Shown one piece after another: positions 32,669 to 42,587 of a stretch of DNA of 64,000 nucleotides. This stretch comes from Candidatus Roslinia caecavium (GTDB lineage: Bacteria; Bacillota; Clostridia; Monoglobales; Monoglobaceae), in assembly GCA_904419955.1 (NCBI GenBank), contig CAJFTO010000001.1, positions 1 through 64,000 on the forward strand, written 5' to 3'. The notes under the pieces were generated by a model. It had not been told where the DNA came from. It did no database searches and was given only the letters and a program-made list of their open reading frames with translations. Within the stretch, counting starts at the first letter, position 1. Each line of letters opens with the position of its first letter. Position numbers and translations under genes: made by a program.

Positions 32669-33646
32669 GTGAATAAGATTCGCTTTGCCGAGCCGTCCGA
32701 TCTCGAGAATGTAAAGAACGCGTGGAACGTATGTTTCGACGATCCCGAGGACTATGTGGACTGGAACTTTAAACATAACTACGACTTCAAAACTACCGTA
32801 GTGGCGGAATGCGACGGAAAGTTCGCGTCGAATATGCAGCTCGTCCCCTACGACCTTTGCATAAACGGCGAGAGCATAAGTTCGTTTTATATAAGCGGCG
32901 TCGCGACGCTGCCCGAATTCAGGATGAGGGGTCTCGTCCGTTCTCAGTTCGAGTTCGCCCTGCCCGAAATGTTAAAACTCGGCGCGGCCGTAACCACGCT
33001 GATACCCTTCAAAAAGGAATTTTACGAAAAATTCGGGTATACGGTAGTATACGAACGGCATAAATTCAACCCTGAAAAAGCGCCGCGAGACGCAAAGATA
33101 TATAAAAGATCCGACATAGACGGCGCGGCTAAGGAGAAATTGATCGATACGCTCAACAGAATATACCGCTCCGACCTAAAAGGTAAAAACGGTTATATTT
33201 TAAGGACGCGGGACAACTGGAACAGACTGCTTGGCGCGCTTACCGTATCCGAAAGCGGCGCGGTCGCGCTCGCCCAAAACGAGAGCGGATATATAATGTC
33301 CGAAGGCGGCGAGGTATTGGAATTTCACGGCGATTTAGGAACTGAAATGCTCGAGTCGGGCGACAGACCGCCGTGTATGGCGAGAGTCGTGGACGCGAAG
33401 AAAGTCTTAGCGCTGTCCGCGCAAAGCTTCGACGGGGATATGAAGCTTAAGATCCGCGACGATATGATAGCCGAAAACAATAAGACTTTTCGGGTAAGCG
33501 GAAAGCGCTTGGAGGCGACCGATGCGGCGGCCGACATAGAACTGGATATAAGCGAGCTCACCGCGCTTTATTACGGCTTTAAAACCGACTCGCGGCTCGG
33601 CGGACTGTTTCGTTCACGCTCCACGTATTTCGAGGTACAGATATAA
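32669..33646 (+). CDS. GNAT acetyltransferase, Eis-like
   Basis: A 325-residue cytosolic protein starting at GTG 32669 after AAGGAG. The N-terminal GNAT domain includes 'ISGVATLPEFRMRGLVRSQFEFAL' (acetyl-CoA-binding strand and loop) and 'LIPFKKEFYEKFGYTVVYERHKF'. The second half and the C-terminal ~90 residues ('LKIRDDMIAENNKTFRVSG') resemble the SCP2-like domain of Eis-family proteins, whose terminal carboxylate acts in catalysis. Family members acetylate amines, including lysines and aminoglycosides; the natural substrate here is unknown. Confidence 0.85.
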   Translation: MNKIRFAEPSDLENVKNAWNVCFDDPEDYVDWNFKHNYDFKTTVVAECDGKFASNMQLVPYDLCINGESISSFYISGVATLPEFRMRGLVRSQFEFALPEMLKLGAAVTTLIPFKKEFYEKFGYTVVYERHKFNPEKAPRDAKIYKRSDIDGAAKEKLIDTLNRIYRSDLKGKNGYILRTRDNWNRLLGALTVSESGAVALAQNESGYIMSEGGEVLEFHGDLGTEMLESGDRPPCMARVVDAKKVLALSAQSFDGDMKLKIRDDMIAENNKTFRVSGKRLEATDAAADIELDISELTALYYGFKTDSRLGGLFRSRSTYFEVQI

Positions 33647-33661
33647 ACTCGGATAAAATTT

Positions 33662-33700
33662 AACGCCGGCGCCCTTATATTCGGCGCCGGCGGCGTTTTT
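33662..33700. terminator. Shared terminator between the GNAT and YitT genes
   Basis: GCCGGCGCC (33665-33673) pairs with GGCGCCGGC (33683-33691), extended by AACGCC/GGCGTT, with T5 on the plus strand. The genes are convergent. Confidence 0.8.
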
Positions 33701-36280: not shown

Positions 36281-36309
36281 TTGATATATCTAAAACGCTG
36301 TGTTATAAT
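36281..36309 (+). promoter_or_regulatory. araC-type gene promoter
   Basis: TTGATA (36281-36286), 17 bp, TATAAT (36304-36309), about 25 bp before the ribosome site. Confidence 0.75.
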
Positions 36310-36341: not shown

Positions 36342-37178
36342 ATGGAACTGTCGGAAATAAACTTAAGACAAACCGCTCTTATTCTCAAATCGCATGGAGA
36401 ATACTTTTTTGACAGCTCCTGGCGTTCGGACGCGCCGCTGGAGACTCAGTCAAGATTATTTTTCGTCCAGGACGGAGAGATGTATTACAAAATAGAGGGC
36501 AAGGACTACGTAGTTTCCAAGAACCAACTCGCTCTGATCCCCGAAAACCGCCGCGTCAAGTTCGGCGTCCTAAAGGACAAGCTTGTGCACCTCAGATTTT
36601 GCAACTTTAACGCCGCTTTCGGAAACAAGAGCATATTCGACTACTTAGAAGGCGACTGGGTGATTACCGTCGCCGATCCCGAGCGGACGATCGAACTATT
36701 CAAACGCTTCGACGCGACCGATAACGATAATCTGATCCGAGATTTTGTCCAGAAAAAGTTCTGCTTGGTTTCCCTCCTCGCCGAATTCATGGACGTATCG
36801 GATTTTAAGATCGCGGCCGAAAAAGAAAACTCAAAGATCGATTTTGTCGGGATCGCCGACTTTATACGCCGAAACGCAAATTCGACCGACCTGATCACTC
36901 TGCGTTTTCTCGCGGATATGGCGCACGTGCATCCGAGCTACTTCGCCAGGGAATTTAAAAAACACTACGGAAAATCGCCGATGCAATACGTACTTGACGA
37001 ACGCGTAGCCTCCGCCAAAAGACAGCTCGCCAACACCTCTCTGTCGATAAGCGCTATCGCCGAGAACATGCACTTTTCAAATCCCAAATATTTCTCAAAG
37101 TTTTTCAAAAGACGAACCGGCATGACGCCGAGTCAGTACCGAAACGATGCTAATAAAAATAATAGTTCTAATAGTTGA
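36342..37178 (+). CDS. AraC-family transcriptional regulator
   Basis: A 278-residue regulator. The N-terminal ~130 residues form a cupin-like ligand domain ('RLFFVQDGEMYYKIEGKDYVVSKNQLALIPENRR'), and the C-terminal ~100 residues are the double helix-turn-helix ('LADMAHVHPSYFAREFKKHYGKSPMQYV' and 'AENMHFSNPKYFSKFFKRRTGMTPSQYR'). It stands 165 bp before the GH95-like enzyme on the same strand and probably activates it in response to a plant sugar. Start ATG 36342 follows AAAGGAGAG. Confidence 0.92.
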   Translation: MELSEINLRQTALILKSHGEYFFDSSWRSDAPLETQSRLFFVQDGEMYYKIEGKDYVVSKNQLALIPENRRVKFGVLKDKLVHLRFCNFNAAFGNKSIFDYLEGDWVITVADPERTIELFKRFDATDNDNLIRDFVQKKFCLVSLLAEFMDVSDFKIAAEKENSKIDFVGIADFIRRNANSTDLITLRFLADMAHVHPSYFAREFKKHYGKSPMQYVLDERVASAKRQLANTSLSISAIAENMHFSNPKYFSKFFKRRTGMTPSQYRNDANKNNSSNS

Positions 37179-37199
37179 TATAGGTTCAATAAACACGAT

Positions 37200-37272
37200 A
37201 AAAGGTTCCATTATTTGATATAAATAATAATAGGGAACCTTTTGTGTCCTCTAAAAGGTTCCATTTTTGTGT
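37200..37272 (+). promoter_or_regulatory. Two mutually exclusive hairpins before the GH95-like gene
   Basis: AAAAGGTTCC occurs at 37200-37209 and again at 37253-37262; its complement GGAACCTTTT lies between them at 37234-37243. The middle segment can pair with either flank. The second hairpin (37234-37262) is followed by ATTTTTG and looks like a terminator. The first pairing would prevent it. This could be the araC terminator, an attenuator, or both. Confidence 0.6.
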
Positions 37273-37295
37273 CAAAGCGCTAAAATTGATATACG
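37267..37295 (+). promoter_or_regulatory. Tentative promoter of the GH95-like gene
   Basis: TTGTGT (37267-37272), 17 bp, TATACG (37290-37295). The spacer contains AAAGCGCT, the core of catabolite-responsive elements, but the outer cre bases match poorly. If used, transcription starts after the hairpins and bypasses them. Confidence 0.35.
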
Positions 37296-37343
37296 CACAC
37301 AGACTTATCATATACAAATTTTCTAAAATCAAGGAGGACAATT

Positions 37344-40300
37344 ATGAAAAAGCTGAAAAGAAAACTCTCGCTTATCATGAGTCTGCTTCTGGCGGCTACA
37401 ATACCCGGTATCCCGGCTATAGCTTCGCTGAGCGATACCGGCGTGAGCGTAGACGGAAGCGATATTCCGGACAGCGTAGCCGGGAAAATATCCTACAGCG
37501 ATACCTACGATCCTATAAGATGGATACGCCCCGGGACCGACGGCAGAAACGGAAGCGGTAACGACCCATGGCGAAACGGACTTGTGACCGGCAACGGACA
37601 GAACGGACTCATAGACGACGGAGCCCCCGAAAACGGAACTCTTATCTACCAGAACATGCAGTTCAACTTCCCGTCCAACGACCAGCGCGAGACGCCCGAG
37701 CTGGCGAGCGTAATGGACAAGGTCAAGCAGACGATAGTAAACGGCGGCTCCCCGTCGTCCGCGTCGTCTACGAGCGCTTCAAGCATACTGAACTCCCGCG
37801 CCGGAGAGTGGAGCTACGAAAACGGTCTTACAAGCGGAAGTTCGTGGCAGCTCAAGAACACCTACACATTCCACCCCGGCATGCAGCTTCGGCTTAAAAT
37901 GAACGGACTTGAAAACGGCGCCGAGGACAGCTTCTACCGCTATACCAACTACGAGACGGCGGAGATCGGCGCGGTATGGTCGGACGAAAGCGGAGAATGG
38001 GAGAGAAAGTCTTTCTCATCGAGAGAAGATAACGTAACGATCACCTCGGTAAAGGCGACCGACGGAAATAGGTCGTTCTCGATGGATCTGTCTATCGACG
38101 ACATCTCGGATATGTCTTCGGAAAATAAGATGAGCGGTTCGGTCGAGGATCTCCGATACAAGAAATTCTATAAGAACTCGGACGGCGAGCTTTACATAGG
38201 CTCGGTCGCTCACTATCCGAACTACGAAAACAGCGAGCTGAAAGACGGCGGCTTTGCCGGAGTCTCTAAGATAATCGTAAAGGGCGACGGCGCGGCGGTC
38301 AATATTACCGACGGCGCGACTCCCGTAGACGACAGAACGGACGAACAGAAAAACAACGGCGTTCCTAACGAGACCGTGATAAACGTCAGCGGCTCGTCGG
38401 TCGGAAGCAACTATACGTTCAACGCCGACCCGACCGTATCGGTTACGAACGCGGAGGAGATAATAATCATAACCAAATCCGCCCGGGATAAGGAGATGGG
38501 CGCGTTCGACGATTTCGCGGGCGCGACTTCGTACGCCCTTGTGGACGAGCTGGTCGCGGATACCAACTCCGCCGCCGCTAAGTATACGACGGACGGCGTA
38601 TTCAGCTACGACGCGGCTCTGGCTCCGCACGCTGAGCAGCACGGCGAGATATTTGGCCGCGCGGAACTTAACTTAAACGCGAGCGACGCCGACCGCGCTC
38701 TCGCAAACGAGGATCTGATCGCAAAGGCTAAGACTGAAGGCGAGAACGGAACGCTGAACCTCGCAATGCTCGAGCGTATGTACTACAACGGCAGATACGC
38801 GAACGTCTGCTGCAGCGGCTACCAAGTCCCGCGTCTCGGCGGTATATGGACCGGCGCGTGGAAGGTCGAATGGTCGGGCGACTACACGACCGACGCGAAT
38901 ATAAATCTTCAAGTGGCCGGAAACAACATCGGAGCTATGCCCGAATCTTCGCAGGGCTTTATAAACCTCCTGCTGAGGACGGCGTCCGACTGGGAGATCA
39001 ACGCTAAGCAGGTATACGGTATAGACGACGCTATATTCGTTCCTACGCGTATAGACGGAGACAGGGCGATGGTCGTCCACTTCAGCATGAGCTTTCCCGG
39101 ACATATCTGGAACAGCGGCGCGAGCTGGATGCTACTCCCGGTATACGAGTACTGGCAGTGCTACGGGAACCAACAGATACCGTTAGCCGACGACGTGCGC
39201 GAACTTCTCGAGGTTACGGAGAATACATACAACATGGCGACGCAGTGGTATTCGGACGAAGAGCCCGCTAAGGTCAACGACACTGTATATAATCTCAGAA
39301 ACACGCTCGGACTTACCGACGAGAGGGCGGAGCAGATACTCGAGCAGGGTTATTTCGATCTTGAAAAAGACATACTATTCCCGCTCCTTACCAAGACTTG
39401 CAACTTCTATACCGGACTTCTCACGCCGGAATATTATACAAAGGACGGCAAGGGCTATTACGAGGTGGGCAAGACGGAGCTGGCCGAGGACGAATACTAT
39501 ATGTTCGTGCCGAGCTATTCGCCCGAGAACTGCCCCGCGGGTTACAGCGGCCAGAGCTATCTGCAGATGAACGCGTCTATGGATATAGCCGCGGCGCGCG
39601 ACTGCTTTAATATGGCTCAGGAGATCGTAGCCGCGGTAGGCGGAGAGAGCGTCGACGGCAACGTCATTACCGCCGATCCGCAGAAGTGGCAGAGTTATAA
39701 GGAAAAACTTCCGCCCTATCTCTACGAACCGACCGGCGAGCTGAAAGAGTGGGCGATAAGCGACTACGGCGAGAACTACGGACACCGTCATATATCCCAG
39801 CTCTACGGACTCTGGCCGGGCTACGAGGCGAACAACGACCCCACGCTCTTCGACGGAGCCAAGGCGCTTATAGCGACAAAGAATTCATACCCGTCTAACG
39901 ACAACGTGGCCGGACACAGCTGGGTCCACAAGGGTCTTATCTCCGCCCGCGCCAAGTCGAGCGAAGGCGTTAAGGACGCGCTGCTGCCCATCGTGTCGCA
40001 GGAGATGCACTACAACTCGATGATGACGGCGCACAACACGAGCGGAAACCAGGCGTACTGCACCGACGGCGCTATAACCCCGCCCGCGATCCTGATAGAA
40101 TCTCTGCTCTACTCCGACGACCAAACGGTCGAGATACTCCCCGCCGTTATAGACGAGATGTTCGAGGCGGGCGGAAGCATAACCGGTCTTAAGACCCGCT
40201 CGGGCGGCGACGTATCCGAGCTTAAATGGACTTCGGACGGCGCCGAACTGACAATTACGAGCGCTGAAGAGATAGATCTAAAATGCGGCAGAGCCGTAGA

Positions 40301-42587
40301 GAGCGTAACAATAAACGGCGAACCCGCCGAGCTTGCAGCCGACGAGAACGGCGAGCCCCGCGTTAGGGTAAGCGGCGAAAACGTAAAGGTAGTATTCAGC
40401 TTTGCCGACATAAATAACGGAACATACTCGATCTCTACCGAAAACGGCGGCGTCATGCCTCGGACCTCTATCGACGCGAGCCCGGTCGTAACCGGAGAGA
40501 ACGCGGGCGAGGCGGCAAAGTGGAACATTGAGCGCAAAGCCGACGGAACTTATACGATCGAGAACGCGCTGCACGGCAGATATCTTGTAAACAACGGATC
40601 CGACGTATATATGAAGCGCGCGCCCGGACAGGACGAGAGTATGTACTGGCGCCTCGACGAGAACGGATATATCGCGGCCGTAAACGGGCAATATCTGAGC
40701 CTTGAAAACGGCGCGCTCACGCTCGGGACCAAAGGAGCAGTATTTACGTTTACCGCGGAGTCGGAAACTCTTACGCAGTACAGCGCGGACGCTATTACTA
40801 TCTCGACCGAGGCCGATCTTTCGCAGCCCGTCAATCCCGGAACGAGGATAGACTTTACCGGCGAGACGACTCCCGCGGCGGCGGAGAGCAAAACGATCGT
40901 CTGGAACGTGAGAGCCGAGGACTCAGCTTCTCTTACCGGCACATATTTCACCGACAACACGCTGAGGATCGGAACGGACGCTCTGTCTAAGACGCTTATC
41001 GTAACGGCTCAGTCCGAGGACGGCGCCTGCGTATCGAACGAACTTAGGATAACGGTTAGCGACACCGTGCAGGACGAGCTGAAATTCTCGCCCGTCCAGG
41101 ACGTTTTTGTAAGCGGCTGGAGCAACAGTTCCACATCCGACAAGGATACCAACTACAGCGACGACTCGCACGACTACCTCACCACGACGAATACTAAAAA
41201 CACGGACAAAAAATATACGCTTATAAAATTCGACATACCTACTCTCGGCGCCGAGGTTAAGGAAGAACTCTCTTCCGAGCTTGTTCTGACATACATGGAG
41301 CAGACCGAGCCGGACGGGATCGCATATTACGCATACGAGTATACCGGCGACTGGGACGAAAGTTCCGCGACCTGGAACTCTATAGGCGGAGATAGTTACG
41401 ACAAGGGAGATGCGATAGCCGAGGGCGTATACGACCGCGAAACCAAGCGAATGAGCTTCGCTCTTCCGGCGGATTATATAAAGAATAATTCCGGCAAGAC
41501 CGTAACTCTGCTCATCGACTCGCCGGACGCGACCGGAGTGCGCACCTTCTGGTACTCGCGCGAATCGGGCGACGAGAACACCGCGCCTGTGATTAATTTC
41601 TCGTACATAGTAGATACCTCGCAGGTCAAGACCGTAACCTACGGTCCATACTGGGCGGACGAGGTCGAGAACCGTCAGGGCTCGAGCGGCGACGACGCAA
41701 CCAACGATTTTGGAAACTTTAAGAACGTAGACGACGAGATAAAAGTATTCTTCCCAGACGCGGAAGACGGGGCGGCGATAGGCTCTTTTAAGAGGATCAA
41801 CGGCATCGACAACGGTTCGAGCGCCGGCTGGAGAGGATACGTTACAAAGACGATAGACGCGGAGGGCGCCGGAGATTATACGATATACGTGCTCGGCAAC
41901 ACCAACGCGGCCAACAGATCGATCGAGATAACGAACGAAACGACGGGCGAGAGCGCGGTATCCGCGCAGTCTTCCGAGCTTACGGAATATTCCACGTCAA
42001 ATTATATGCGGGTGTTCAGCGTAGAGCTCAGGCTCGAAAGAGGCGAAAACGCACTGCGTATCCAGGCCCCCGAAGGCGAAGCGGCGCCCAACTTTGTCGC
42101 GCTGCTCGCGACCGGAGAGATATACGGCTCCAGCGGTGAAAACCCTCCGCCGACGGCGACCCCGACTTCGGCTCCGACTCCGACGGCTACCCCATCGCCT
42201 ACTCCGACGGCCACGATCGCGCCAACGGCGACACCGACGGCGACCCCAACGGCAACCTCAACGCCCACTCCAACCGCAACTCCAACTCAAACTCCCGCGG
42301 CTGCGTATGAGATAATCTCGTATTCGGTAACCAACGACGGCGAGAAGGCGGTTGTAGAGAGCGCCGACGTGCGCGCAGAGGACGCGGAGAACGTAACGCT
42401 CTACACCGCGGCCTACAACGACGAGGGCGTTTTGGTCGGATTCGCCGAGAGCTCAGTCGAGGAAAGCGGCGAGAGCTTAGTCGTCGTAGGGCTTGAGACC
42501 GATCCGGCGAATACCGTAAAGATGTTCCTGTGGCGGGATATGCAGCCGCTGACGGATGCGAATGAGGTTTCGCTGGACGCGAAATAA
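37344..42587 (+). CDS. Secreted GH95-like glycoside hydrolase with carbohydrate-binding modules
   Basis: A 1747-residue exported enzyme with a signal peptide ending near AIA (residue 27). Residues ~50-1000 resemble GH95 (alpha-L-fucosidase / alpha-L-galactosidase). Counterparts of the known catalytic residues are visible: Asn519-x-Asn521 in 'DANINLQ', Glu728 in 'PSYSPENC' and Asp908 in 'YCTDGAIT', with 'GHRHISQLYGLWPGY' as a family block. Then come a ricin-type beta-trefoil (~1022-1150), a DNRLRE/CBM96-like domain (~1245-1427), a CBM6/35-like domain (~1429-1593), a Pro-Thr linker (~1598-1652) and the shared C-terminal module. It should remove L-fucose or L-galactose from pectin or xyloglucan outside the cell. 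It is preceded by an AraC regulator. Confidence 0.87.
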   Translation: MKKLKRKLSLIMSLLLAATIPGIPAIASLSDTGVSVDGSDIPDSVAGKISYSDTYDPIRWIRPGTDGRNGSGNDPWRNGLVTGNGQNGLIDDGAPENGTLIYQNMQFNFPSNDQRETPELASVMDKVKQTIVNGGSPSSASSTSASSILNSRAGEWSYENGLTSGSSWQLKNTYTFHPGMQLRLKMNGLENGAEDSFYRYTNYETAEIGAVWSDESGEWERKSFSSREDNVTITSVKATDGNRSFSMDLSIDDISDMSSENKMSGSVEDLRYKKFYKNSDGELYIGSVAHYPNYENSELKDGGFAGVSKIIVKGDGAAVNITDGATPVDDRTDEQKNNGVPNETVINVSGSSVGSNYTFNADPTVSVTNAEEIIIITKSARDKEMGAFDDFAGATSYALVDELVADTNSAAAKYTTDGVFSYDAALAPHAEQHGEIFGRAELNLNASDADRALANEDLIAKAKTEGENGTLNLAMLERMYYNGRYANVCCSGYQVPRLGGIWTGAWKVEWSGDYTTDANINLQVAGNNIGAMPESSQGFINLLLRTASDWEINAKQVYGIDDAIFVPTRIDGDRAMVVHFSMSFPGHIWNSGASWMLLPVYEYWQCYGNQQIPLADDVRELLEVTENTYNMATQWYSDEEPAKVNDTVYNLRNTLGLTDERAEQILEQGYFDLEKDILFPLLTKTCNFYTGLLTPEYYTKDGKGYYEVGKTELAEDEYYMFVPSYSPENCPAGYSGQSYLQMNASMDIAAARDCFNMAQEIVAAVGGESVDGNVITADPQKWQSYKEKLPPYLYEPTGELKEWAISDYGENYGHRHISQLYGLWPGYEANNDPTLFDGAKALIATKNSYPSNDNVAGHSWVHKGLISARAKSSEGVKDALLPIVSQEMHYNSMMTAHNTSGNQAYCTDGAITPPAILIESLLYSDDQTVEILPAVIDEMFEAGGSITGLKTRSGGDVSELKWTSDGAELTITSAEEIDLKCGRAVESVTINGEPAELAADENGEPRVRVSGENVKVVFSFADINNGTYSISTENGGVMPRTSIDASPVVTGENAGEAAKWNIERKADGTYTIENALHGRYLVNNGSDVYMKRAPGQDESMYWRLDENGYIAAVNGQYLSLENGALTLGTKGAVFTFTAESETLTQYSADAITISTEADLSQPVNPGTRIDFTGETTPAAAESKTIVWNVRAEDSASLTGTYFTDNTLRIGTDALSKTLIVTAQSEDGACVSNELRITVSDTVQDELKFSPVQDVFVSGWSNSSTSDKDTNYSDDSHDYLTTTNTKNTDKKYTLIKFDIPTLGAEVKEELSSELVLTYMEQTEPDGIAYYAYEYTGDWDESSATWNSIGGDSYDKGDAIAEGVYDRETKRMSFALPADYIKNNSGKTVTLLIDSPDATGVRTFWYSRESGDENTAPVINFSYIVDTSQVKTVTYGPYWADEVENRQGSSGDDATNDFGNFKNVDDEIKVFFPDAEDGAAIGSFKRINGIDNGSSAGWRGYVTKTIDAEGAGDYTIYVLGNTNAANRSIEITNETTGESAVSAQSSELTEYSTSNYMRVFSVELRLERGENALRIQAPEGEAAPNFVALLATGEIYGSSGENPPPTATPTSAPTPTATPSPTPTATIAPTATPTATPTATSTPTPTATPTQTPAAAYEIISYSVTNDGEKAVVESADVRAEDAENVTLYTAAYNDEGVLVGFAESSVEESGESLVVVGLETDPANTVKMFLWRDMQPLTDANEVSLDAK
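42148..42300 (+). repeat. Pro-Thr linker repeat
   Basis: Degenerate tandem repeats of the kind ACN-CCN-ACN-GCN encode a Thr/Pro/Ala-rich linker of about 50 residues between the binding domains and the terminal module. Such linkers are flexible, protease-resistant and often glycosylated. Confidence 0.85.
42304..42587 (+). repeat. Shared extracellular module, copy 2 (C-terminal)
   Basis: The last ~94 residues of the GH95-like enzyme, isolated by the linker. They end 'VKMFLWRDMQPLTDANEV', directly comparable to 'VKLYIWNNMEDMQPLSEV' in copy 1. Confidence 0.7.

Follow-up and report, generated by a model that had tools for sequence, protein, structure and literature searches.

The araC-GH95 locus

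The window analysed here, a stretch of 64,000 nucleotides from Candidatus Roslinia caecavium, carries on its forward strand a gene for an araC-family regulator of 278 aa (36342-37178), followed after a spacer of 165 bp by a gene on the same strand for a GH95-like glycoside hydrolase of 1747 aa (37344-42587). The names given to these genes in a first-pass annotation hold, with an AraC-type HTH in the former (PF12833, E=1.1e-24; PF00165, E=2.3e-22) and a GH95 catalytic domain in the latter (PF22124, E=4e-44), which also matches PF14498 (E=3.7e-08). The hydrolase has an N-terminal signal-like hydrophobic stretch and its gene has a clear ribosome-binding site, AAGGAGG, just 5' of the start. A divergent MatE-family gene lies 5' of araC, so that araC and the GH95-like gene form an isolated pair. 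The G+C content of the spacer between them is 30%, against 51% for the window. A second GH95-like gene in the same genome may be split over two contig ends (G000:C22:2-655, C51:844-3690).

A strong promoter-like site for araC is found on the forward strand at 36281-36309 (TTGATA and TATAAT at a spacing of 17 nt, the latter preceded by TG) and has 11 of 12 consensus matches. The possible promoter of the GH95-like gene, on the same strand at 37286-37316, is weak, its TTGATA being combined either with CATATA at 17 nt (5+3 of 12 consensus matches) or with TATACA at 19 nt (5+4 of 12). The idea that the two genes share a promoter was rejected, as the resemblance is not significant (P = 0.14). Two further candidates were also discarded: a Cre/LacI-type operator at 37272, whose 10/14 match was equalled or beaten by about 7% of shuffles, and TTGATATA as a local regulator motif, which occurs 14 times in the window with 2.6 expected, but also 101 times in 864 kb and is therefore genome-wide and unspecific.

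Three arms and two mutually exclusive hairpins

The spacer contains three short arms on the forward strand, all at exactly the positions first reported: arm 1, AAAAGGTTCC, at 37200-37209; arm 2, GGAACCTTTT, the exact complement of AAAAGGTTCC and followed by GTGT, at 37234-37243; and arm 3, again AAAAGGTTCC, at 37253-37262. The proposal that the middle arm can pair upstream or downstream, but never both, was borne out, since the shared arm at 37234-37243 gives two exclusive hairpins, H1 (arms 1 and 2) and H2 (arms 2 and 3). The 10-base word has no other copies in the window (0.11 expected; at least three copies in 0/100 shuffles) and only six beyond it in the 2.8-Mb genome, nine in total, and as those six are all lone, with no second copy nearby, a genome-wide repeat family is ruled out. 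When the 165-bp intergenic region was resampled 20,000 times with a Markov model, no 10-bp triple appeared. In the 864-kb sample of the genome, taken as stretches, on which the genome-wide statistics are based, this locus is the only one at which two hairpins have a middle arm of at least 9 bp in common, compared with counts of 1, 0, 0 and 0 in resampled sequence, while relaxed triples with a 7-bp shared arm are at chance level (10 real; 10, 3, 8 and 5 resampled). The three-arm arrangement is more than chance predicts, but, the longer case being unique and the 7-bp triples being at chance, it is a single standout and not a layout that the genome uses as a class.

H1 (37194-37247, forward strand) exceeds the 10-bp stem that was originally described: ACAC and AAAAGGUUCC pair with GGAACCUUUU and GUGU, so that an outer ACAC/GUGU pairing is added, and the loop holds an inner 7-bp stem, AUUAUUU/AAAUAAU. 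It folds with a dG of -16.8 to -17.1 kcal/mol (z = -4.9 for 37197-37248) and at about -17 kcal/mol is more stable than H2 at -13.6 kcal/mol. Its core, GGUUCC/GGAACC, is followed by UUUUGUGU, yet both UUUU and GUGU are also able to pair as part of the stem. Counted from the GGAACC core, the U score of the tail is higher for H1 (4.6) than for H2 (3.6); the U-run of H1, however, is only 4 long, and with UUUU counted as stem H1 is without a tail. The earlier view that a tail is confined to the downstream hairpin is hence one of two fair readings, which stands if UUUU is assigned to the H1 stem and falls if UUUUGUGU after GGAACC is counted as a tail. Inside the loop of H1, at 37216-37224, there is also an extended -10-like sequence, TGATATAAA, with a weak consensus match; a transcript begun from it, near 37231, would have H2 without H1.

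H2 consists of the hairpin at 37234-37262 and the tail ATTTTTGT, the whole occupying 37234-37270 on the forward strand. Its stem of 11 pairs, 4 of them G-C, gives a stable stem-loop such as intrinsic terminators have, and a T-run lies directly after it (ATTTTTGTGT), with a U score in the middle of the range for the genome. Of 586 genes, 147 are followed within 150 nt by a terminator-like site; the median energy of these sites is -14.4, against which the -13.6 kcal/mol of H2 is ordinary. Its description as a terminator-like hairpin with an ATTTTTG tail is upheld, its pattern, energy and tail being typical of the terminator-like sites of this genome. With intrinsic (Rho-independent) terminators in general it shares a GC-containing stem of 10-11 bp, a loop of 7-9 nt, an immediate T-run, a position after a stop codon (both hairpins lie within 100 nt of that of araC) and an energy typical for the genome; it differs in that its 5' arm can also pair upstream and in that the G+C of its stem is below that of most terminator-like sites listed for the genome. 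In the minimum-energy fold of 37179-37285, UUUGAUAUAAA (37214-37224) pairs with the tail region UUUUUGUGUCAAA (37263-37275), a pairing that encloses H2 and hides its U-run.

Order of folding

Where two hairpins exclude one another, it is the order of folding and not geometry alone that decides whether they could act as a switch. The order was followed with partition functions on growing transcripts, in calculations that describe equilibrium only and take in no proteins, pausing or NusA. For transcript ends between 37243 and 37270, and with each of the five 5' starts used, H1 accounted for about 97% or more; when 8-12 nt were hidden in the polymerase, H2 reached at most 0.3% until position 37270. 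By these calculations H1 forms before H2 can and is dominant until the polymerase has moved beyond the T-run of H2, whereas blocking arm 1 brings H2 to >99%. A path search placed the saddle between the two hairpins 13.5 kcal/mol above H1, and its height suggests that their exchange would be slow relative to elongation. Because H1 is first and dominant, any switch at this locus would by default allow read-through and would depend on a factor that covers 37200-37209.

Search for a sensing signal and for relatives

No Rfam family was detected in the window at the gathering threshold, and the matches of rox2 and sau-19 to the spacer at lax Rfam thresholds, being far under the curated cut-offs, were rejected. 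The spacer has no ATG-started ORF that could encode a leader peptide; the GTG- and TTG-started frames in it are few and without an evident ribosome-binding site. Published screens for attenuators rely mainly on conservation (PMC2965389). The relatives compared were those of the family, the order and the species collection, among which there were no same-genus genomes, and no orthologous locus was found in any of these sets, of which the family set had 37 other members. The closest relatives of araC are paralogs in the same genome, with 33-45% identity. It had been suggested that the same three-part pattern be looked for in related genomes, and none of the 50 other genomes of the order had the three-arm word. 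A similarity search with the spacer DNA matched the ribosome-binding/start region of a few genes and nothing else, and the matches from a phage search were marginal and of the kind expected by chance.

Interpretation

The reading that we prefer, with a probability of roughly 0.55, is that the overlapping terminator-like hairpins of the spacer form an ordinary transcript end for araC, with some redundancy, and that the GH95-like gene is transcribed from its own weak promoter, probably in dependence on an activator. The araC transcript would then end at two overlapping, mutually exclusive terminator-like hairpins that are built from a locally duplicated word. H1, the first to form, about 20 nt beyond the araC stop codon, would either terminate transcription, by way of its GGUUCC/GGAACC core and the following UUUUGUGU, or let some of it leak, and H2, with the better consecutive U-run, would serve transcripts without a formed H1. 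Transcription of the GH95-like gene would begin near 37286-37316, at a promoter that the neighbouring AraC-type protein would most simply switch on.

Such a transcript end is favoured by the terminator score, energy and tail of H2, which are mid-range among the 147 sites, by the stability of H1 (-16.8 kcal/mol, z -4.9) and a core tail whose U score is above that of H2, by the TTGATA box and ribosome-binding site 3' of H2, and by the lack of an Rfam match or an ATG-started leader ORF. Against it count the weakness of the GH95 promoter and the lack of a significant likeness to the araC promoter (P = 0.14). The strength of H1 as a terminator is doubtful, its U-run of 4 being countable as stem, and should H1 fail to terminate, it would, by the folding calculations, be an inhibitor of H2 rather than a back-up. 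The first-pass annotation had left the choice between regulated read-through from araC and two redundant terminators; the second is the better fit, while regulation finds no support, H1 being dominant and no RNA family, ATG-started leader ORF or orthologous locus having been found.

An unlikely alternative, though the best placed of those considered, is that the repeats are candidate DNA sites of an AraC-type protein or other regulator that would activate the GH95 promoter, the hairpins being a by-product of opposed sites. A scan with the pattern AGGTTCMNTWWW picked out, besides the three arms, a degenerate fourth version of the word, AGGTTCAATAAA, at 37182-37193 on the forward strand, 21 bp before arm 1, so that AGGTTC words are present at 37182, 37203, 37240 (reverse) and 37256, all 5' of the GH95 promoter. 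The four matches are the only ones in the window and fall within 86 bp (0.46 expected in 64 kb), and they are the sole cluster in the genome; the 16 matches elsewhere are isolated, which can also be held against a regulatory role. Direct repeats with a spacing of about 21 bp are common targets of AraC proteins; here 21 bp separate the first copy from the second and 53 bp the second from the last, spacings of about 2 and 5 helical turns. The locus resembles AraC-type tandem operators in this spacing and in that a word is repeated close to a weak promoter next to araC, but one of the full copies is in inverted orientation, as an exact complement. There is, moreover, no copy 5' of araC itself, the similarity of the fourth copy is mostly AT-rich, and the exact 10-bp complementarity through AAAA/TTTT is beyond what a binding site needs and suits an RNA stem better.

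A true switch, in which H1 is the default antiterminator and H2 the terminator, is doubtful to a very slightly greater degree. A protein, a small RNA or a paused ribosome over 37200-37209 is the trigger proposed: it would free arm 2, H2 would form, and read-through from the araC promoter into the GH95-like gene would stop. Attenuators with exclusive terminator and antiterminator stems are a class for which screens exist (PMC2965389, which also cites that of Merino and Yanofsky). The locus shares with them a middle arm common to two exclusive stems, the later of which has a T tail, but it lies on the 3' flank of another gene and not in a dedicated leader, and the searches brought to light no sensor or aptamer, no leader peptide and no conservation. 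Exact mutual exclusion by 10-bp arms beyond chance, the folding of H1 until the T-run is passed and of H2 once arm 1 is blocked, and a strong araC promoter combined with a weak GH95 promoter all speak for a switch. Against it are the negative results of the searches for an aptamer, an RNA family or an ATG-started leader ORF in the spacer and for a conserved copy in any relative, and the araC coding sequence is the sole upstream part of the transcript; a ribosome terminating at 37178 is not expected, given its footprint, to reach arm 1 at 37200. Support for a switch goes no further than geometry. Its most specific form, at the 3' end of a regulator gene and with read-through as default, is highly improbable: binding of the arm 1 RNA, perhaps by a sugar-responsive protein or a small RNA, would turn the terminator on and cut the hydrolase gene off from the strong promoter. 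Were a switch real, the level of the regulator would be coupled to the neighbouring hydrolase gene via shared transcription.

Finally, it is improbable that the arrangement is neutral debris, in which a terminator arm and its tail (TAAAAGGTTCCATTnTT, TTTTGTGTC) were duplicated by slippage and the third arm has no function, for although there are direct repeats of 17 nt with 94% identity (37199, 37252), an exact TTTTGTGTC at both 37240 and 37265 and no such arrangement in any relative, the 10 bp of each arm are intact in a spacer of 30% G+C.

Elsewhere in the window, convergent genes that end at 33646 and 33704 have between them, at 33664-33692, a perfect G+C-rich hairpin of 10 bp. It is flanked on either side by a T-rich tail and looks like a shared two-way terminator.
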